Shown: one piece after another, positions 731 through 7,112 of the stretch
Layout of the letters: every line of letters starts with the position of its first letter
Numbering within the stretch: position 1 is the first letter of the stretch
IMG/VR virus record: IMGVR_UViG_3300030117_004190
Span: 1-27,227 of that record
Length of the DNA stretch: 27,227 nt
From: a virus
Direction: 5' to 3' (one strand)
The notes under the pieces: model-generated
The model's database searches: none
What the model saw: only the letters and a program-made list of their open reading frames with translations
Told to the model about the DNA's origin: nothing
Program-made: the position numbers and the translations under genes

Positions 731-759
731 TATATGGGGTCTGTGACATATATTGTCAA
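731..759 (-). promoter_or_regulatory. Leftward promoter for the 712-189 unit
   Basis: Reading leftward, a perfect -35 box TTGACA (759-754) is followed after 17 bases by CATATA (736-731); the same segment offers ATATAA at 18 and TATAAG at 19 bases. The operator palindrome at 744-758 overlaps the -35 box and the start of the spacer. It lies just upstream of GGAGG and the ATG at 712. Confidence 0.6.
744..758. promoter_or_regulatory. Operator palindrome 1 (TGACA-N5-TGTCA)
   Basis: TGACA TATAT TGTCA, a perfect 5-bp-arm palindrome around a symmetric spacer. The 20-base context CTGTGACATATATTGTCAAG (741-760) matches the one at 7001-7020 except in the central spacer. It overlaps the -35 box of the leftward promoter, a classical repressor position. 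Confidence 0.65.
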
Positions 760-817
760 GCTTTGTAAAAAAAATATTTAATAATATATTTAAAAGGTGT
801 TAAAATTATTAACCATC

Positions 818-1018
818 TTAACTTGAGCCACTATTATTGTGGCTCTTTTTTTCTTTTTCTATAAATCTTTTTGGTACGTATGGTAAAGTTATACCCCTGT
901 GTTTTTCTTTTTTGTGTTTGTCATTGTATGACCATCTACACTCAGGGGCGCAATATTTTTTATTTGGCTGTGGAGAGTAAAAAAATGACCCACAGTTTTC
1001 ACAAACTTTTTTATTCAT
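818..1018 (-). CDS. Cys4 zinc-ribbon protein
   Basis: 66 residues. The N-terminal half shows four cysteines in two pairs, CENC (residues 6-9) and CAPEC (residues 23-27), separated by a short loop with a KKYC context, as in small zinc ribbons that bind nucleic acid or protein partners. The C-terminal half is lysine-rich. It is the last gene of the leftward recombination operon and overlaps its upstream neighbour by 8 bases. Its 3' end holds a hairpin that works as a terminator in the opposite direction. The metal-binding role is inferred from cysteine spacing only. Confidence 0.65.
   Translation of the reverse strand: MNKKVCENCGSFFYSPQPNKKYCAPECRWSYNDKHKKEKHRGITLPYVPKRFIEKEKKSHNNSGSS
825..852 (+). 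terminator. Rightward intrinsic terminator inside the 3' end of a leftward gene
   Basis: Perfect 7-bp stem GAGCCAC / GTGGCTC with a 7-base loop, followed on the + strand by seven T (846-852). Leftward, the hairpin is not followed by a T tract. It should therefore stop rightward read-through coming from the endolysin side before it reaches the recombination operon. Confidence 0.7.
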
Positions 1019-1217
1019 TTTGTAAATTTTTTTGAACGTGTTGTATGTCTTTTTGTTTTCTTAATTGCATAGCAGCACGTAAAGAATTAAGTGCTAATCT
1101 TTGTAAATGATATTCATCCTCAACATTTACAACGTACCTTTTTCCATCAATTAAAATGTTTATGTGTGTAGGATGCGGATCAATATAAATATTTTGATTA
1201 AAAAGGTACTTGGTCAT
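1011..1217 (-). CDS. Small basic protein of unknown function
   Basis: 68 residues, MTKYLFNQNIYIDPHPTHIN, then IDGKRYVVNVEDEYHLQRLA, ending in a helical Lys/Gln-rich tail. I do not recognise the family. Its start overlaps the end of the SSB-like gene by 20 bases, in another frame, so the codons for the SSB acidic tail also encode its first residues. It lies in the recombination operon between the SSB-like protein and the zinc-ribbon protein. Confidence 0.6.
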   Translation of the reverse strand: MTKYLFNQNIYIDPHPTHINILIDGKRYVVNVEDEYHLQRLALNSLRAAMQLRKQKDIQHVQKNLQNE

Positions 1218-1617
1218 CTATATCATCCTCTTCTTTTATAACATCTGAACTAGAAAAAATTTTATCAATATCATCATCTTGTATTTCAACTTTGTTTTCT
1301 GTTGGCAATGTTATAGGTGTATCAAATGTCTTTTGTTTATAATCAAAATTAGGATTGTTTGGATATAAGATGCAACTTGTCATTTGTGTGTAATTAGCAA
1401 CGTCATTTGTACCATGCTTGTCTTGCAAAGATATAGATAAATAAACGTCATGTTTAACCATAAGATCTAATATTTCTTTTATCTTTTCATCATATCTAAT
1501 ATCATCTTTGTTTTTTAATTTTATCCATCCTGACGATGCAAGAACATGACCTTGAGGATTAGGATTTAGTTTTGTATTATTATTGTTTAGTTGTGGTTTT
1601 GTTGCTTTAAAACTCAT
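1198..1617 (-). CDS. SSB-like single-stranded DNA-binding protein
   Basis: 139 residues. The clearest feature is the C-terminus: an acidic stretch (EEDDIDDQVPF, residues 129-139) ending in the Pro-Phe tip that bacterial and phage SSB proteins use to recruit partner proteins. The middle (roughly residues 28-90, SGWIKLKNKDD to TSCILYPNNPNF) could be a compact OB fold, but it does not look like canonical E. coli-type SSB. The first 25 residues are Asn- and Gln-rich. The gene lies directly behind the Rad52/Erf-like annealing protein (TAATG junction at 1617), the expected neighbourhood for an SSB. The SSB role is inferred from tail and context; the fold is not verified. Confidence 0.65.
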   Translation of the reverse strand: MSFKATKPQLNNNNTKLNPNPQGHVLASSGWIKLKNKDDIRYDEKIKEILDLMVKHDVYLSISLQDKHGTNDVANYTQMTSCILYPNNPNFDYKQKTFDTPITLPTENKVEIQDDDIDKIFSSSDVIKEEDDIDDQVPF

Positions 1618-2336
1618 TATTTATTCCTTCCTTGCTGCACTGCATTTTCTTTAAATGTTTTAAAATTTTTAAATATAGTTTCAATCATTACTTTTTGCTT
1701 TTCATTACCAGCTTTATATAAGTGTATTCCTGTTTTGTAATTTTCGTAATGCCACTTATTAAAATCTTCAACATGATATAAATCTTTTGTTACCTGGTCA
1801 TATTTACCTTTTATCCATTGATCATACGTAAGTGATCCAGCATCTTCATAAGATACAAACTTATCATTTATTTTTTGTACTTGTTTTTTTTCTGGTGGAT
1901 CTTTTTTAACAGCTTTTTGCTTTTGTTCTATCTCATTATTTATCTTTATGTTTTTTTCAAGTGCTGCATTAAGTTCATCAGCTGATGCTATTTCTGTACC
2001 ATGTAAGCCTAAGTTAGCAAGACATCTGCCCCAAGCTGATGACTCTCCATTTTCAATTGCAGATGCAATATTTACACCGCTGTTTCTTACTTCTTCAGCA
2101 TGACCATTAGCAATAACAAAACCATCTTTGTTTGTTATTGTCGCTTTCATAACAATTCTTTCTGGTGTATTTACAAGAATTTCTGTTGTCATGCCATAGT
2201 CAAATCCAAACATTTTTCTAAAAATATTTATCCTATCTTTAACCATAAGATATTTTTTACCTTTAAGATTTATTGAAGCTGTGCCTTTTGTCAGTTGTTC
2301 AGCTTGCTCAATAGCTTTTAAAATATTTTCTTGCAT
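1617..2336 (-). CDS. Rad52/Erf-like single-strand annealing protein
   Basis: 239 residues. Residues 91-122 (ASAIENGESSAWGRCLANLG, then a LHGTEIASADEL segment) match the signature of phage annealing proteins in the Rad52/Erf superfamily, where a 'E..S..GRALA.LG' helix is followed by 'IASADE'. Residues 20-90 look beta-rich, consistent with that core. The C-terminal third is Lys-rich, then has a YDQWIKGKYDQV segment. Such proteins anneal complementary strands resected by a partner exonuclease; a PD-(D/E)XK nuclease is two genes upstream and an SSB-like gene is next. Start and stop overlap the neighbours by one to three bases, implying one transcript. Confidence 0.8.
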   Translation of the reverse strand: MQENILKAIEQAEQLTKGTASINLKGKKYLMVKDRINIFRKMFGFDYGMTTEILVNTPERIVMKATITNKDGFVIANGHAEEVRNSGVNIASAIENGESSAWGRCLANLGLHGTEIASADELNAALEKNIKINNEIEQKQKAVKKDPPEKKQVQKINDKFVSYEDAGSLTYDQWIKGKYDQVTKDLYHVEDFNKWHYENYKTGIHLYKAGNEKQKVMIETIFKNFKTFKENAVQQGRNK

Positions 2337-2683
2337 TACCTTACCTCTAATGTTTTGTAATGTTCATAACCAGCTGGTGTAAGTACCCAAACAATTTCAT
2401 CATTATCATAAGCGTTTTTTCTTTTTACTCCATCTGGATGTTCTTGAACATAAGGTACGCTTGCTCTTGATAAGTCAGCTGTTCTAGGTTGTATGCTATT
2501 TGGATTACCACCAATAATTGCAACTAATTCACTATTTGTTGCGCCATAAAACCCACGTATTTTTAAATGAAAAATTACTTGGTTTGACAATGTTAATCTT
2601 TTTACTTTTGCAAAAGCATCAACAGATGTATCTTTTGGCTCTTTGTGTAATGGTGTATAGTCAAGGTTTAATTGTGAACTCAT
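2336..2683 (-). CDS. Putative winged-helix-like protein
   Basis: 115 residues from the ATG at 2683, chosen because GAGAGGG lies just upstream; a TTG at 2698 would add five residues. The segment QVIFHLKIRGFYGATNSELV followed by PRTADLSRASVPYV and VWVLTPAGYEHY resembles small phage winged-helix proteins: helix, 'GATNSEL', recognition helix, then a wing ending in 'VLTPAG'. DNA binding is inferred from that pattern. It sits between exonuclease and annealing protein, and the exonuclease start-to-stop frame overlaps its 5' end by about 23 bases. Confidence 0.6.
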   Translation of the reverse strand: MSSQLNLDYTPLHKEPKDTSVDAFAKVKRLTLSNQVIFHLKIRGFYGATNSELVAIIGGNPNSIQPRTADLSRASVPYVQEHPDGVKRKNAYDNDEIVWVLTPAGYEHYKTLEVR

Positions 2684-3653
2684 TTTGTACCCTCTCAAAT
2701 TCAGTTTGTTTTGTTTGTGTTTCGTATTCTACTTGATCTGATATTAGTTTGTAATATTCTAAAACAGATGGTGGTTGATGCCAGGCATAATCATTTAAAT
2801 TAGCTGGGTTCATTCCAAGTAACCAAAATTTATTTGGTGCTGCTTTGATTTGCATTTCGATTGCTTTTAATCTTTTTTTTATATCTGCAATAACATCATC
2901 TAAAAAATCATCTTTCATTTCATCGCAAGTATGTTTATTAAAAATTCTGTATTCATCTTTATTAACATACAAGGCAATAGGTGATTTTCCTGTCATCATT
3001 TTAAAACCAGCGAACTGATACAGATTTGGTAAAAGAAATTGTGATGTTAATCTTGATGGTAAGCTGCCTTTTTCAATCCCTGCTTTTGTTCTTTGTGATG
3101 GTTTTGACCATTTAGTCTTTAGATCAACACAATTAATATAGTCTGGTATTGTGTAATATTTTAAATCAAGACCATCAACATAATCAAGAAAGTGTGTTTG
3201 TGCTACAATTTCTTCATTTCTACCGCTAAATATCTCTTTTAGGCCTTCAATAGCTACATTTGTCACTTGAAAAACCTCATCTGCGACCAGCTCTGTTTTA
3301 AGCTTGTCAGAGCCGTCATCCCAATTTCGTGGCTTATAGTTCATAAAATCTTGATATGCATAGTCACAGGCTAAATCTAGGGGTCGATTTTCTAAAAAGT
3401 GTTCGTCACATCCACGTTCTACCGCTTTTCCACCCATCATAGGTGCAGATGCACTACCATTTATATTGTGATCTAAATTTCTTAATGTTTCTCTAGCTAT
3501 TTGTATTTCTTTCGCTCCGCTTTCGTAATGCTTAATAACATTTTTAGCATCCTCGACTAAAGGTCTAACAAAAAACTTTTGAAAAAATACCCAAGACAAT
3601 GGATTTTGTATTGGATTGCTATGATGTCTGTATTCTGTTTCTCTTATATTCAT
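2661..3653 (-). CDS. PD-(D/E)XK exonuclease (RecB/Cas4/YqaJ-like)
   Basis: 330 residues from ATG 3653 (an in-frame ATG at 3665 adds four). The motif GGKAVERGCDEHF (residues 74-86) fits the 'G...H/E' helix that precedes the core of RecB-like nucleases. DYINCVDLKTKW (171-182) fits the PD-(D/E)XK active site, with D171 and D177-L-K179 as likely metal ligands and catalytic lysine. It is followed by a Q-rich helix with LYQFAGFKMMTG, as in phage exonucleases. With the annealing protein and SSB downstream it forms a Red-alpha/beta-like recombination module that would resect dsDNA ends. No clear Shine-Dalgarno is seen; the ATG follows the stop of the 28-residue gene by one base, so coupling is likely. 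Confidence 0.8.
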   Translation of the reverse strand: MNIRETEYRHHSNPIQNPLSWVFFQKFFVRPLVEDAKNVIKHYESGAKEIQIARETLRNLDHNINGSASAPMMGGKAVERGCDEHFLENRPLDLACDYAYQDFMNYKPRNWDDGSDKLKTELVADEVFQVTNVAIEGLKEIFSGRNEEIVAQTHFLDYVDGLDLKYYTIPDYINCVDLKTKWSKPSQRTKAGIEKGSLPSRLTSQFLLPNLYQFAGFKMMTGKSPIALYVNKDEYRIFNKHTCDEMKDDFLDDVIADIKKRLKAIEMQIKAAPNKFWLLGMNPANLNDYAWHQPPSVLEYYKLISDQVEYETQTKQTEFERVQNEFTIKP

Positions 3654-3654
3654 T

Positions 3655-3741
3655 TTAAGCAACATAAATTATAAAAGATACAAATAAGATAACAGCTAGT
3701 GCTGCTAAACATTCTGATAAATAATATTTAAATTTTTGCAT
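3655..3741 (-). CDS. 28-residue single-span membrane miniprotein
   Basis: ATG at 3741, TAA at 3655-3657. The product starts MQKFKYYLSE and continues as one hydrophobic segment (residues 11-28, CLAALAVILFVSFIIYVA) long enough to cross a membrane, with positive residues only before it. GGAG lies about 10 bases upstream within the preceding gene. It fills the only gap in the operon: it overlaps the stop of the upstream gene by 14 bases and ends one base before the exonuclease start. Function unknown; the coding call rests on position and the clean hydrophobic pattern. Confidence 0.5.
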   Translation of the reverse strand: MQKFKYYLSECLAALAVILFVSFIIYVA

Positions 3742-3895
3742 TTGCCTTTTTCTCCTTTTTTTTCTTTTTTTTATTTGCTGATTCAACTGCTGTATTAAAA
3801 ATATATACAAACATACTTTCTCTTTGCGCGTCAGCTATTCTATCAATAAAACCTCTATGTCGTAAAATATTTGTAATTTCTTTATCTTTTGCCAT
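3728..3895 (-). CDS. Small lysine-rich protein, first gene of the recombination operon
   Basis: 55 residues from ATG 3895, chosen because AAAGGAG sits 5-8 bases upstream; the frame is open to a GTG at 3931, but that would start inside the operator. The sequence opens MAKDKEITNILRHRGFIDRI and ends in a run of lysines (ANKKKKKKEKKANAKI). The N-terminal half looks helical. No family is recognised; the basic tail suggests nucleic acid contact. It is the promoter-proximal gene of the leftward unit. Confidence 0.6.
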   Translation of the reverse strand: MAKDKEITNILRHRGFIDRIADAQRESMFVYIFNTAVESANKKKKKKEKKANAKI

Positions 3896-3919
3896 TTTTC
3901 TCCTTTCTATTGATTTGCC

Positions 3920-3956
3920 TTGCAATGACACTAAATGTCATTTATTATTTTTGCAA
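3920..3956. promoter_or_regulatory. Divergent promoter pair between recombination operon and regulator gene
   Basis: Rightward: TTGCAA (3920-3925), a 17-base spacer, then TATTAT (3943-3948), about 46 bases before the regulator ATG. Leftward: a mirror TTGCAA (3956-3951), 17 bases, then the weaker TAGTGT (3933-3928). The two CTTGCAA/TTGCAAG boxes face each other with the operator between them, so one bound repressor could block both directions. Confidence 0.55.
3926..3940. promoter_or_regulatory. Operator palindrome 2 (AATGACA-N5-TGTCATT core)
   Basis: TGACA CTAAA TGTCA; the symmetry extends to 7-bp arms (3924-3942), the longest of the four sites. It lies exactly in the spacer of the rightward promoter and over the leftward -10 box, upstream of the Cro-like gene, so autoregulation is likely. 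Confidence 0.65.
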
Positions 3957-3966
3957 GAAAAAAATG

Positions 3967-3981
3967 TGACATATTAAGACA
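3967..3981. promoter_or_regulatory. Degenerate operator half-site
   Basis: TGACA TATTA AGACA: the left half matches the operator and its flank (TGTGACATAT) matches site 1, but the right half is broken. It lies in the leader of the regulator gene and may be a weak second site. Confidence 0.25.
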
Positions 3982-3993
3982 AAGGTAAATAAA

Positions 3994-4212
3994 ATGACGT
4001 TAAAAGATTATATGCTTGAAAAAAAAATTAAGAGTTATGGAAGGTTAGCACAGCTTTTAGGAATAAAACATAGTAAAATTGTGCAAAGGTGGTGCTTGCC
4101 TTTTGACCATAAAGAACGTGTTATTCCAAGTCCTGTATACATGGATAGGATTATAAAGGCTACACAAGGTGCGGTTATGCCAAATGATTTTTACATACAG
4201 AAAGAAGAATAA
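3994..4212 (+). CDS. Cro/YdaS-like transcriptional regulator
   Basis: 72 residues, ATG preceded by AAAGG at a good distance. A helix-turn-helix is visible in residues 14-35 (SYGRLAQLLGIKHSKIVQRW), and the C-terminal part ends IIKATQGAVMPNDFY, the 'G.V.PNDFY' ending seen in small phage Cro-like and YdaS-type repressors. It is the first gene of the rightward early unit and faces the recombination operon across a shared promoter region. It is the best candidate in the window to bind the TGACA-N5-TGTCA operators; that link is inference from position and from site symmetry, which suits a dimer. Confidence 0.75.
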   Translation: MTLKDYMLEKKIKSYGRLAQLLGIKHSKIVQRWCLPFDHKERVIPSPVYMDRIIKATQGAVMPNDFYIQKEE

Positions 4213-4664
4213 TGCAAGAATTGTATGCATCAGAAGCCCATTTACAGAAAAAAGTATGTCAGTATTTAGATATTGTCTTACCTGATTTTAGCATTTACCA
4301 TCATTCTGCAAACGAGGGAAGAGGTAATAAGGTGCAGTTTTATATGAAGCTTTATTTGATGGGTTTTAAATCTGGCTGGCCTGATTTAGAAATATTTGTA
4401 CCTGATTGCAAACCCATTTTTTTAGAACTTAAAAGACCAGGTAATTACGCAACACCAAAACAAAAAGCCATACACAAGCTTTTAGAATATGCTGGTACGC
4501 ACGTATTTATTTGCAAATCATTACAAGATGTTTATCAATCGCTTGTTAATATTGTGCCATTAAAAAAACATCAAGCAGCTACAAACATGATTTTGCATGA
4601 ACAAACGCTTGAAGCTAACATAAAGAAAATGAAAAGACTGAAAAAAGAAAGAGCAAAAAAATAA
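4212..4664 (+). CDS. VRR-NUC domain nuclease
   Basis: 150 residues. GWPDLEIFVP (residues 55-64) followed by PIFLELKRPG (68-77) and TPKQ (81-84) is the VRR-NUC type PD-(D/E)XK core, with D58 and E72-L-K74 as likely catalytic residues and E35 in the NEGRG helix as the upstream acid. Standalone VRR-NUC proteins in phages are small structure-specific or nicking-type nucleases; the substrate here is unknown. The C-terminal 30 residues are lysine-rich. TAATG overlap with the regulator implies co-translation. Confidence 0.85.
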   Translation: MQELYASEAHLQKKVCQYLDIVLPDFSIYHHSANEGRGNKVQFYMKLYLMGFKSGWPDLEIFVPDCKPIFLELKRPGNYATPKQKAIHKLLEYAGTHVFICKSLQDVYQSLVNIVPLKKHQAATNMILHEQTLEANIKKMKRLKKERAKK

Positions 4665-4864
4665 TGTATCTTGCAACTTTATTATTGGAGTTTGATTCAC
4701 TAGAAGAATGTTTTAAGGCAATACATTTTCTTAAAGAATTTCTACACCATGAGTTTTATAATTGTTCATTACATGATGAAACCTATGCCTTTTTCTTTGA
4801 ACATTGGGCTAGGCACAACCATTTTAGCAAGCCCCCACTAGGTAGACCAGGAATATTGGAATGA
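4664..4864 (+). CDS. Small protein of unknown function
   Basis: 66 residues, hydrophobic and aromatic, with several His and Phe (FLHHEFYNCSLHDETYAFFF). It starts MYLATLLLEFDSLEECFKAI. No family is recognised. It starts in the stop of the VRR-NUC gene and its stop overlaps the ATG of the following zinc-ribbon gene, so it is clearly within the same operon. Confidence 0.6.
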   Translation: MYLATLLLEFDSLEECFKAIHFLKEFLHHEFYNCSLHDETYAFFFEHWARHNHFSKPPLGRPGILE

Positions 4865-5019
4865 GATGTGAAAACTGCGATAGCTGCATTACCTGGCAAG
4901 GCGATAGAGATGCGCACGACATGGATTTTGATCAAGAAAAATATATGTTTGTGCGAGTATATTATTGTAAAAAATGTGGCTGTGTTACACACATATATTA
5001 CGCAAAACAACCAAAATGA
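4861..5019 (+). CDS. 52-residue zinc-ribbon miniprotein
   Basis: ATG at 4861 overlaps the previous stop by 4 bases (ATGA); TGA at 5017-5019. Two cysteine clusters, CENCDSC (residues 3-9) and CKKCGC (36-41), about 27 residues apart, fit a zinc ribbon. It ends two bases before an operator palindrome. Function unknown; roles in DNA or RNA binding are typical of such proteins but not shown. Confidence 0.6.
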   Translation: MRCENCDSCITWQGDRDAHDMDFDQEKYMFVRVYYCKKCGCVTHIYYAKQPK

Positions 5020-5048
5020 TTGACAATCTATGTCATGGTATTTTGTTA
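5020..5048 (+). promoter_or_regulatory. Rightward promoter with overlapping operator
   Basis: TTGACA (5020-5025), 17 bases, then TTGTTA (5043-5048), a weak -10. The operator at 5021-5035 overlaps the -35 box exactly as at the leftward promoters near 750 and 7010. It would drive the genes at 5072 and 5382. Confidence 0.45.
5021..5035. promoter_or_regulatory. Operator palindrome 3 (TGACA-N5-TGTCA)
   Basis: TGACA ATCTA TGTCA, perfect 5-bp arms, inside a short gap between two genes of the rightward early unit, overlapping the TTGACA box. Confidence 0.65.
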
Positions 5049-5071
5049 CAAATGCATTTTAGGGGTTGACA

Positions 5072-5395
5072 ATGCAAAATTCAAATCGCAATAATCCTTG
5101 TTGTAGTAACAATAATAGTTACAACAATAAGCAGTTGAGAAATAATATCCAAAAAATTATTTCTCGAACTGCTAAAAGATGTAATAGCAATTATATTGCT
5201 GCAACAACGGCTAACAACTTGGATAACGAAGAATTACGTATAGAATACTTGCAACAAAAAGTATTAAAGTTATCTGAACGAATGATGTCACGCATTGACC
5301 ATAATAAGATTATTGATCAAGTTATGAAATTAGATACATCACAAAAAAAAGTTTTCTTAGAACAACTATTTAAAAAATTAAATGCTGCAAGGTAA
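5072..5395 (+). CDS. Coiled-coil-like protein of unknown function
   Basis: 107 residues from ATG 5072, chosen because AGGGG lies at 5061-5065; a TTG at 5066 would add two residues. The first 30 residues are Asn-rich (NSNRNNPCCSNNNSYNN), then long helices follow, with ELRIEYLQQKVLKLSERMMS (residues 60-80) and a Lys/Leu-rich end that could form a coiled coil. No family is recognised. It overlaps the next gene by 14 bases. Confidence 0.6.
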   Translation: MQNSNRNNPCCSNNNSYNNKQLRNNIQKIISRTAKRCNSNYIAATTANNLDNEELRIEYLQQKVLKLSERMMSRIDHNKIIDQVMKLDTSQKKVFLEQLFKKLNAAR

Positions 5396-5822
5396 TGTTC
5401 AACAATTAGATTATTGGATTATGGAAGCAGCTGAAACAGAAAGGCGTTTACCACCAGCTTTTCGTAAGCAAAAATTAGCCAGCTGGCCTAGTTATAAAAC
5501 AGATTGGCTTGCTTATAGCGATGTTGTTTATAATCCAAGCTTAACAAAAGCAACAACAGTGCAAATAACAAGATACGAAAAGATATTAGATTTATTAATT
5601 GATTGTTGTAACGAGAAAGATAGACAACTATTGTGGAGTGTAGCACATACATCAGCATTTAGACAACGTGGCCCTAAATGGACATTGTTAGCAAAGAGAT
5701 ACCACAAAGATAGAAGAACGATAAAGATGGATTATTTAGATGCTTTAATACGATTGCATTACAGAATAAAAGAAAAGCAGCCGAAGCTGCTTTATCCTGT
5801 AAATGATGCTGTGTTACATTAA
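5382..5822 (+). CDS. DUF6362-like protein with helix-turn-helix-like end
   Basis: 146 residues. The order MEAAETERRLPPAFRKQKLA-SWPSY, then a middle helix 'ITRYEKILDLLI...DRQLLWSVAH', then WTLLAKRYHKDRRTIKMDYL resembles DUF6362 proteins, where a charged N-terminal 'EAA.T.RRLPP' precedes a C-terminal HTH that looks like a sigma- or terminase-type recognition helix. The role of the family is not known to me; DNA binding is likely. A second in-frame ATG (MEAAETE) could be the true start. The 3' end contains a hairpin that terminates the opposing operon. Confidence 0.6.
   Translation: MLQGNVQQLDYWIMEAAETERRLPPAFRKQKLASWPSYKTDWLAYSDVVYNPSLTKATTVQITRYEKILDLLIDCCNEKDRQLLWSVAHTSAFRQRGPKWTLLAKRYHKDRRTIKMDYLDALIRLHYRIKEKQPKLLYPVNDAVLH
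5761..5793 (-). terminator. Leftward intrinsic terminator inside the 3' end of a rightward gene
   Basis: Read leftward: perfect 8-bp stem AAAGCAGC / GCTGCTTT closed by the stable TTCG tetraloop, followed by TCTTTTATTC. It is well placed to end the leftward operon 6960-5819, whose last stop is at 5819. Rightward, it is only followed by ATCCTG. Confidence 0.7.
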
Positions 5823-6010
5823 TTTAATTTATAATCAAATTCTATGCAATTGCCACAAATTGAACAAACAAATCCTTCATCAATAATTATATCATTATCG
5901 CTGTTTGTTAATTCTTGAGTGTATGGTTTAGCATGATCTAAACAATTATGATCTTTTTTGTCATATTTCATAACATCTGCCAAACTACAAAAAAATGGTA
6001 ATTTTTTCAT
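5819..6010 (-). CDS. Small cysteine-containing protein of unknown function
   Basis: 63 residues. It starts MKKLPFFCSLADVMKYDKKD, has C23, and ends with CSICGNC near residue 49-55, so it may bind zinc. No family is recognised. No clear Shine-Dalgarno is visible near the ATG at 6010; the upstream gene ends 5 bases away, so reinitiation is possible. Last gene of a four-gene leftward operon; its stop overlaps the converging DUF6362-like gene by 4 bases. Confidence 0.55.
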   Translation of the reverse strand: MKKLPFFCSLADVMKYDKKDHNCLDHAKPYTQELTNSDNDIIIDEGFVCSICGNCIEFDYKLN

Positions 6011-6015
6011 TTAAA

Positions 6016-6351
6016 TTAATTTAAATACCTTGGGCCTGTCCACTGTATGTTGTAAGTTTCAAAAATATTACCTCTAGCCTGGTTAAGTGCTGGTTGATGC
6101 CAGCTACTAGCTTTTAATATGTCACCACGCTTAAAATGTTTGAAATCATTTTTAACAATAAATCCCCATGCGCTACCATGATTATCTGTTGTTATTTTTA
6201 TGTACTTAGGCCCAACTTTGTAACCTAAGCCATCGTTAAATCTTTCTATCATTCCTTTGACATGATCAGAAAAATTAACATTTTCAACCTTGCATTGTTT
6301 AGCATAATCAAGTTTTATATTTTCAAGTAACTCTTCAATTTTATCAATCAT
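6016..6351 (-). CDS. Conserved phage protein of unknown function
   Basis: 111 residues. The C-terminal half (GSAWGFIVKNDFKHFKRGDI, then SWHQPALNQARGNI and IQWTGPRYL) looks like a pattern I associate with uncharacterised phage proteins in which a 'GDILKA..W..PA.N.ARGNI' segment ends in 'WTGP'. The N-terminal 40 residues are helical. Function unknown. Start coupled to the upstream gene through the GGAG-containing junction at 6349-6367. Confidence 0.65.
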   Translation of the reverse strand: MIDKIEELLENIKLDYAKQCKVENVNFSDHVKGMIERFNDGLGYKVGPKYIKITTDNHGSAWGFIVKNDFKHFKRGDILKASSWHQPALNQARGNIFETYNIQWTGPRYLN

Positions 6352-6367
6352 ATTATTTGTTCTCCAT
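6349..6367 (-). repeat. Coupled stop/RBS/start junction, copy 2
   Basis: Leftward reading ATGGAGAACAAATAATATG, again MENK, stop, next ATG. The flanking genes differ from those at 378-396, so only the junction is shared. Confidence 0.6.
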
Positions 6368-6619
6368 AATTGTTGCTGCTTTAATCATGCCTTTTGCAAG
6401 GTATTCAAAAAAATGCATTGGATCACCATTACAAAAATCAATCTTTACAAAATTACTTTTAATTTTTGCTTTTGCAGCTGCATTTAAATTTTTAATCCAG
6501 GCAACCACACAAGCTGTTTCTACTAAGTGAGTCATACCATTTTCTTTGAACTCAAATTCAGTATGTGTATCAATACCTTTTTCTTTGATAAAAGTGTCTA
6601 ACCAAGAGTTAAAACTCAT
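6353..6619 (-). CDS. Small protein of unknown function
   Basis: 88 residues from ATG 6619, chosen because GGGAG lies 7 bases upstream; the longer frame to 6640 would overlap the previous gene. It begins MSFNSWLDTFIKEKGIDTHT and ends TIMENK. No family is recognised. Its last codons carry the Shine-Dalgarno for the next gene, in the same arrangement as the gene at 382-579. Confidence 0.6.
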   Translation of the reverse strand: MSFNSWLDTFIKEKGIDTHTEFEFKENGMTHLVETACVVAWIKNLNAAAKAKIKSNFVKIDFCNGDPMHFFEYLAKGMIKAATIMENK

Positions 6620-6633
6620 ATTTTTCTCCCTAT

Positions 6634-6960
6634 TTACCAATCAATTTCTCTGTCGTGTATTGCAACTGCACCATAAAAGTCTTTTCCAGTAATTTTTTTA
6701 ATAGCCTCTGCAAACCTACTGTCTGAAGTAGCACCATAATTGCCCCCAAATGTGACACCTTTATTGATTAATTCGTCTGGAACAATTTTTACACTATTGA
6801 AAGCATTTTCTACTAATTTAACTGGTGGGCAATCCTCTGAGGGGTCAAATGGCCCATCAACATTAGTTACACATAATCTGCTAAATCTTTTTGATACACC
6901 ATTTTTTGTACAATCACTGCTATCGTGTGCATCTCTATATACTGTTATAATTAAACCCAT
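6634..6960 (-). CDS. Conserved phage protein of unknown function
   Basis: 108 residues, starting MGLIITVYRDAHDSSDCTKN, with VTNVDGPFDPSEDCPPVKLV in the middle and GGNYGATSDSRFAEAI then FYGAVAIHDRE at the end. This pattern recurs in uncharacterised phage and bacterial proteins as I remember them, but no biochemical role is known to me. First gene of its leftward operon; AAAGGA precedes the ATG at 6960, and a strong promoter lies about 35-60 bases further upstream. Confidence 0.7.
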   Translation of the reverse strand: MGLIITVYRDAHDSSDCTKNGVSKRFSRLCVTNVDGPFDPSEDCPPVKLVENAFNSVKIVPDELINKGVTFGGNYGATSDSRFAEAIKKITGKDFYGAVAIHDREIDW

Positions 6961-6990
6961 TTATTTCCTTTCTTATTAACATCTATTATT

Positions 6991-7019
6991 TATATAATTA
7001 CTGTGACAATATTTGTCAA
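6991..7019 (-). promoter_or_regulatory. Leftward promoter for the 6960-5819 operon
   Basis: TTGACA (7019-7014), 17 bases, then TATATA (6996-6991), followed by an A/T-rich leader and AAAGGA before the ATG. The operator palindrome overlaps the -35 box. Confidence 0.7.
7004..7018. promoter_or_regulatory. Operator palindrome 4 (TGACA-N5-TGTCA)
   Basis: TGACA ATATT TGTCA. Its flanks (CTG before, AG after) are the same as at 741-760 although the genes served are unrelated, which argues for selection or duplication of a control cassette. Confidence 0.65.
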
Positions 7020-7047: not shown

Positions 7048-7076
7048 TTGACTTAATGATCTAAAATACTAATTAT
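7048..7076 (+). promoter_or_regulatory. Possible late promoter upstream of small terminase
   Basis: TTGACT, 17 bases, AATTAT on the + strand; a TATAAT at 7083-7088 is present but lacks a good -35. No TGACA-N5-TGTCA operator lies on it, so it would escape the early regulator. Tentative. Confidence 0.35.
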
Positions 7077-7085
7077 AGTGTTTAT

Positions 7086-7112
7086 AATAGCTGCATTTTG
7101 CCTACAGCTATT
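7086..7112. other. Perfect 8-bp inverted repeat in the late leader
   Basis: AATAGCTG / CAGCTATT around an 11-base loop. No T tract follows, so it is not an obvious terminator. It may be an RNA hairpin in the leader of the late transcript or a protein site. Confidence 0.4.

Follow-up and report, generated by a model that had tools for sequence, protein, structure and literature searches.

What is the function of the palindrome TGACA-N5-TGTCA, which occurs four times in the 27,227-bp stretch of viral DNA analysed here (the window), and which protein recognizes it? The sequence-only reading, which had located the palindromes correctly, took them for operators of one phage regulator. The four are the sole exact matches in the window, whereas shuffled sequences contained 0.06 on average and never more than 1. 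Relaxation to one mismatch added no further site, and relaxation to two mismatches added 20, each with exactly two mismatches, against 16.9 expected by chance. As these extra sites stay close to the chance level, the exact four stand apart. In a scan of intergenic against coding sequence, all four fell between genes, in a window of which 7.1% is intergenic (p = 2.5e-5). The centres of the half-sites are 10 bp apart, roughly one turn of DNA. The putative operators, including one degenerate copy, are the following.

744-758, no strand: putative operator TGACATATATTGTCA, including the -35 TTGACA (759-754) of a leftward promoter
3926-3940, no strand: putative operator TGACACTAAATGTCA in the divergent nuclease/regulator gap, within TTGCAA/TATTAT, the predicted promoter of the regulator gene
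3967-3981, no strand: putative degenerate companion operator TGACATATTAAGACA, just 5' of the regulator start; counterpart in the relative L112, TGGCATTAAAAGACA
5021-5035, no strand: putative operator TGACAATCTATGTCA in the gap separating the 4861-5019 and 5072-5395 genes; L112 version, TGGCATAAAATGTCA
7004-7018, no strand: putative operator TGACAATATTTGTCA in the pre-TerS gap, over the -35 of a leftward accessory unit; kept in L112 and L015

The companion site, overlooked in the earlier reading, reads TGACA-TATTA-AGACA, at a centre-to-centre distance of 41 bp from the 3926 site.

The proposed placement of the palindromes at promoters was borne out. The -35 hexamer TTGACA was found on the minus strand at 744 and 7004, towards leftward units, and on the plus strand at 5021, where the -10 is poor (best 3/6). 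At 3926 the palindrome makes up the whole 17-bp spacer between TTGCAA and TATTAT, a layout repeated in L112 as TTGAAA-[TGGCAATTAATGTCAAA]-TAGAAT. Promoter-like matches were no denser than in shuffles (48 versus 42), and therefore promoter calls alone are weak evidence. Control of every early transcription unit, as first proposed, was an overstatement: the recombination genes and the regulator use a single divergent gap, and about 270 bp separate the site from the nuclease start. The statement that the late promoter region lacks the site is also doubtful, since the 7004 site lies within the pre-TerS gap, about 65 bp 5' of a TATAAT kept in two relatives, and rightward genes follow the corresponding site in many relatives. 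One further conserved element is placed 5' of TerS.

7048-7090, plus strand: putative late-promoter element, conserved (TTGACnnAATG...ACTAA...TATAATAG)

The window comes from a relative of the HTVC010P pelagiphages. Its TerL matches HTVC010P-type TerL at 57-58% over 98%, and DNA-level similarity to cultured phages is next to nil. With HTVC010P, HTVC034P and Skadi (proposed Ubiqueviridae) the window shares, besides the related TerL (about 57%), a related portal and the early gene order, in which nuclease and SSAP genes are divergent from a small regulator. The genes concerned are listed below.

1617-2336, minus strand: putative single-strand annealing protein (SSAP), from isolate synteny; PHROG 11717, of unknown function
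2661-3653, minus strand: putative recombination nuclease, first large gene of the leftward recombination unit, from the nuclease annotation in syntenic isolates
3994-4212, plus strand: REG, 72-aa Cro/YdaS-like HTH regulator and probable binder, from predicted fold and family
5382-5822, plus strand: DUF6362-like protein with a sigma-region-4-like C-terminal half, a rival candidate binder or activator

The exact palindrome was present in only four of 30 related records, because relatives carry a variant arm; the wider pattern TTGWC-N7-GWCAA, with unchanged spacing, resolved this scarcity. With at most one mismatch allowed, 79 of 86 distinct loci had this pattern within 160 bp 5' of REG (about 2 in shuffles), and 31 of 66 had it 5' of the nuclease (about 1 expected). 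Its density was 9.7/kb upstream of REG and 2.9/kb upstream of the nuclease, compared with 0.02-0.33/kb in the coding controls (TerL, portal, VRR). The REG promoter is thus the densest place, with 134 sites in the 86 upstream regions, and relatives commonly carry two sites there, 39-41 bp apart. The interval from the DUF6362 gene (g5382) to TerS carried the motif in 28 of 43 cases (2.6 expected). Across 91 contigs, themselves 11% intergenic, 65% of the TGWCR-type sites were intergenic, and these intergenic sites numbered 52 against an average of 2.8 for 119 permuted-arm palindromes.

The closest well-covered relative is the L112/L017 contig, of which REG is 62% identical to that of the window. 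Four sites, each with at most one mismatch, were found there at all four syntenic places: the left end, the REG spacer, the g4861-g5072 gap and the pre-TerS gap. The left-end site, counterpart of 744-758, sits just before the integrase gene, and the distance from operator to integrase ATG was 16-37 bp in 6 of 6 loci checked. Recurrence at corresponding positions across dozens of relatives upholds the earlier proposal of an operator set, and the identification of the palindromes as operators is well supported by these comparisons. Pairing of -35 boxes by chance in AT-rich sequence might be suspected, given that TTGACA is a common -35 hexamer and that promoter-like matches are at shuffle density. 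The excess of four sites over 0.06 and the syntenic conservation in relatives leave this explanation a negligible probability, and conservation alone refutes a chance origin.

As to the binding protein, the AlphaFold model of REG (pLDDT 90.5) has five helices in a compact lambda-repressor-type HTH fold, with YdaS, SinR, Cro and P22 c2 as the nearest folds, in support of the Cro/YdaS-like assignment made from sequence. VIA Z was 7.5 to P22 c2 and 7.6 to YdaS, values that are modest for folds of this small helical kind; YdaS was the top Foldseek match at a weak E of 0.29, with Foldseek E-values of 0.3 or worse. Against Pfam HTH models the window REG reached no cut-off. Among 33 members of the REG family, 19 matched HTH_3 (E<=0.1), the window REG not among them, and two matched the YdaS model (PF15943; best E 0.0019). 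The family is large in uncultured marine phages, and a search for REG relatives in bacterial genomes found none. At the family loci compared, the inverted repeat stands, conserved, in the promoter of REG itself. Base 6 of the operator arm agrees only in part with the REG helix (no G with the Q/H type and mostly G with the R type, but A/T in the CRRW clade), a comparison that is partly circular for the window and L112, where sites were chosen with A at this base. Altogether, REG is likely to bind the palindromes, and the location of the sites at -35 or in the spacer suggests that it represses from them. Of the original single-regulator proposal, the operator set stands, and the 72-residue protein is a likely binder and repressor.

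The 146-residue DUF6362 protein (5382-5822) could instead bind the sites, which would then act as elements of activation or of promoters and not as operators for a repressor. A TTGAC-type -35 sequence is the target of sigma region 4, and the C-terminal half of this protein weakly finds the region-4 structures of SigK, SigD4 and sigmaA, albeit with Foldseek E-values above 1. Its gene accompanies REG wherever contigs of the uncultured family cover both, and its putative helix also differs from lineage to lineage. However, L018/L029 combine a DRR-type DUF6362 helix, like that of the window lineage, with CG-type operators; followed by lineage, the operator letters show one exception to REG and one to DUF6362. 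The palindrome is symmetric, of the dimer type, and reaches its highest density at the REG promoter, as predicted for an autoregulator. We thus regard binding by the DUF6362 protein as unlikely, and retain REG as the candidate.

In 54 of 65 family loci a CI-like gene of the HTH_3/HTH_31 type separates the nuclease gene from REG; the window has none at this locus. The integrase domain PF00589 gave no match in the 27-kb window record. Among 24 records screened, it was present in 14 other uncultured records and HTVC028P, and a second screen was positive for 8 of 12 records, one of them common to both screens. Genomes of this family measure about 35 kb and the window record is a fragment, so that CI and integrase could lie elsewhere, but their syntenic places are covered by the window and are empty. 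The window phage appears to have lost, or never had, both genes; we infer loss from these absences. That relatives have a CI/Cro-like immunity region, in which integrase is under operator control, had escaped the sequence-only reading.

The sites might chiefly serve the CI-like repressor of temperate relatives, with REG secondary and the window holding remnants, as for instance if the window phage encounters CI produced by related prophages. The adjoining CI-like gene in most family loci is in line with this view, as is CP-933P, in which CI-like PaaR2 and Cro-like YdaS both bind overlapping operators (PMC8630535). Operators nevertheless persist in the CI-less lineages of the window, L018 and L074/L145, and therefore CI alone cannot account for them; the motif was missing when sought in the CI-less relatives L049, L089, L117 and L119. 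In the window and L018 the operators are near-perfect at syntenic places, which counts against a CI-centred function because sites lacking a resident binder should decay. We consider such a function improbable, and REG remains the preferred regulator.

The arrangement resembles known switches. In CP-933P of E. coli O157:H7, the small Cro-like YdaS is divergent from CI-like PaaR2, palindromic operators overlap both promoters, and another operator is found at a distant promoter (PMC8630535). The likeness lies in the divergent Cro-like and CI-like genes with palindromic operators, and in YdaS heading the Foldseek matches of REG. Operators in CP-933P are palindromes of 18 bp with the half-site GTTTAGTAA, in contrast to the core TGACA-N5-TGTCA here; unlike CP-933P, operators here also stand before the recombination genes, before integrase (in relatives) and in the pre-TerS gap, and the window is without the CI half.

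In the lambda CI/Cro switch (OR, OL), operators lie between the divergent genes and more are found at other early promoters. In relatives of the window, too, a CI-like gene diverges from a Cro-like gene, operators are paired between the two, and more are found at other early promoters; two operators 39-41 bp apart take the place of three. Unlike lambda, integrase itself is an operator target, and the CI-like proteins lack a peptidase S24 match (no S24-type CI peptidase domain in the 24 records). Stoperators, the dispersed operators of mycobacteriophage repressors, are asymmetric and numerous and stop elongation, in contrast to the few symmetric sites at promoters here. As would be the case for REG, one mycobacteriophage repressor binds several dispersed sites (PMC9283540).

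HTVC010P-type phages encode 'two transcriptional regulators' of unknown action (PMC10504331). Their REG homologue is divergent, 30-40% identical to REG and with an insertion. Their cultured genomes differ in that neither TTGWC-N7-GWCAA nor, in de novo searches, any other recurrent intergenic palindrome convincingly above simulation was found. This absence, in phages without this REG type, speaks against a host-regulator binding site exploited by the phage, like CtrA in other alphaproteobacterial phages. Use of host regulators by alphaproteobacterial phages is reported (PMC9437464), yet the motif shows a strong association with two phage genes, REG and integrase, and the arm letters differ among phage lineages. 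A host regulator is thus very improbable.

We propose that the palindromes are operators of a CI/Cro-type immunity and early-control switch, with REG as a Cro-like autorepressor kept without CI and integrase, a reading that we hold to be probable. A REG dimer would bind TGACA-N5-TGTCA at the -35 or within the -35/-10 spacer and thereby keep host RNA polymerase off the REG promoter and off those of the leftward accessory units and the second rightward unit. Accumulation of REG would then turn down early expression. The ancestral system was probably a CI/Cro-type lysogeny switch, because the operators of relatives precede integrase and flank a divergent CI-like repressor. The window phage would retain the Cro-like half and the operators, CI and integrase being lost or never present. 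More tentatively, the lineage may have shed CI and integrase while keeping the Cro-like half and all operators as a timer of the lytic cycle. If so, a prophage of a temperate relative with a CI still able to recognize the sites would block such lytic-timer phages, and ocean metagenomes would carry a readable immunity code in the form of the operator sequence.

HTVC010P-type phages rank with the most abundant marine viruses, and the literature searched held no description of the timing of their gene expression. The conserved operator motif together with a named candidate regulator offers a testable handle on early control. It also allows temperate members to be told by sequence from those that appear non-temperate, and may predict which uncultured marine phages confer superinfection immunity against one another.

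Scanning of all 27,227 bp, which is the entire IMG/VR record, detected the palindrome TGACA-N5-TGTCA at only four places, against 0.06 expected. The four palindromes had been placed there by the sequence-only reading and were thus confirmed; in the intergenic versus coding comparison that it proposed, all four exact sites were intergenic. No one-mismatch sites were found in the window, and two-mismatch sites occur at chance level.

744-758: operator; right half is the minus-strand TTGACA, -35 of a leftward promoter
3926-3940: operator; occupies the whole 17-bp spacer of the promoter of the 72-residue regulator gene (3994-4212, plus strand)
3967-3981: degenerate fifth site, TGACA-TATTA-AGACA; centre 41 bp from that of the 3926 site
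5021-5035: operator; left half is the plus-strand TTGACA, with a poor -10
7004-7018: operator; right half is the minus-strand TTGACA, -35 of a leftward promoter

Just to the right of the 744 operator, a plus-strand terminator-like hairpin (825-845) followed by a T-run is a possible end point for a very short transcript running rightward; terminator-like matches in that region show no excess over shuffles.

Conservation in relatives, also proposed as a check, was borne out by the closest well-covered relative, L112/L017 (regulator 62% and TerL 81% identical), where 12.7 kb contain just four sites with at most one mismatch to TGACR-N5-YGTCA, at matching places.

Site 1: left end, 18 bp before the integrase start
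Site 2: spacer of the regulator promoter, TTGAAA-TGGCAATTAATGTCAAA-TAGAAT
Site 3: gap corresponding to 5021 in the window
Site 4: gap corresponding to 7004 in the window

The pre-TerS site is also present in a further relative, L015. In the wider family the motif becomes TTGWC-N7-GWCAA with its centre unchanged. Of 86 distinct loci, 79 have it within 160 bp upstream of the regulator (about 2 expected; 134 sites in all), the sites often lying in pairs spaced by 39-41 bp. It was also found before the nuclease in 31/66 and in the DUF6362-TerS interval in 28/43 (2.6 expected). These counts are not independent events, many of the loci being closely related. Motif density was 9.7 and 2.9 per kb upstream of regulator and nuclease, respectively, versus 0.02-0.33 in TerL, portal and VRR coding controls. 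In a set of 91 contigs, totalling 1.19 Mb and 88.5% coding, TGWCR-type sites numbered 80, of which 52 were intergenic, while 119 permuted-arm palindromes gave a mean of 16 sites, 2.8 intergenic. Upstream of the regulator, L111, L112 and L034 also carry imperfect CCAG-NN-CTGG palindromes, possibly the site of a second regulator; none was seen in the window.

Homologues of the regulator were fetched from more than 100 viral loci, and occur also in HTVC010P, HTVC034P, Skadi and HTVC204P; Pfam HTH_3 was matched, weakly, by 19 of 33 family members. For the AlphaFold model of the regulator (pLDDT 90.5), the nearest solved folds by Foldseek included YdaS of CP-933P, SinR, Xfaso1 Cro and P22 Cro, none significant, and by VIA P22 c2, CylR2 and YdaS (Z 7.5-7.6). 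The Cro/YdaS-like label is sound as a statement of predicted fold. The densest sites at its own promoter, the Cro-like fold and the retention of operators without the CI-like repressor favour this protein as the binder, short of proof, and the absence of CI in the window makes it the simplest resident one. The letter at arm position 6 tracks the regulator helix in part only, a comparison partly circular for the window clade. Another candidate binder is the DUF6362-like protein (5382-5822, plus strand), conserved before TerS, which shows a weak resemblance to sigma region 4 over its C-terminal half and whose gene accompanies the regulator wherever contigs cover both.

Alignment of the window, L112 and L015 indicated a conserved rightward element before TerS (7048-7090, TTGACnnAATGnnCTnAAnnACTAA...TATAATAG), a possible late promoter as judged from sequence, with TATAATAG at its end (about 7083-7090). 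Its TTGAC to TATAAT spacing, 29 bp, is unusual. The claim that the late promoter region lacks the site is doubtful: the 7004 operator lies in the pre-TerS gap, about 65 bp upstream of TATAATAG, and from there may affect the late promoter.

The window TerL is 57-58% identical to those of HTVC034P, Lederberg and HTVC204P, and its early region follows the HTVC010P-type order, putative nuclease (2661-3653) and putative SSAP (1617-2336) leftward and small regulator rightward; at the nucleotide level it resembles cultured phages hardly at all. One contig with an identical TerL (IMGVR_UViG_3300030116_001444), 55 kb and without integrase, well exceeds the family's roughly 35 kb, and is either chimeric or an extended form of the window genome.

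Tyrosine integrase is encoded by 15 of 24 records in a first set (the window, 22 uncultured relatives and cultured HTVC028P) and 8 of 12 in a second, one common to both. A CI-like gene, leftward and encoding 210-275 aa with an N-terminal HTH_3/HTH_31 domain, lies between nuclease and regulator in 54 of 65 non-redundant family loci, and at each of the six integrase loci examined a site stands 16-37 bp before the start codon; relatives thus possess a CI/Cro-like region whose divergent genes have operators in common. Neither gene was found in the window by profile or tblastn, although both syntenic places lie within it; that the two were lost, and not missing from the start or encoded beyond this fragment, is an inference. 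Operators are retained in some other CI-less phages (L018, L074/L145) and absent from CI-less L049, L089, L117 and L119. The records of L018, L049, L089 and L145 contain no integrase, and these members also lack the CI-like gene (L145 judged via its close relative L074), so a lysogeny-free state may have arisen more than once. The literature searched names regulators of HTVC010P-type phages but gives no operators for them (PMC10504331), and the nearest described analogue is YdaS/PaaR2 of CP-933P (PMC8630535). Loss of CI and integrase, if real, would be a notable twist on a known type of switch.
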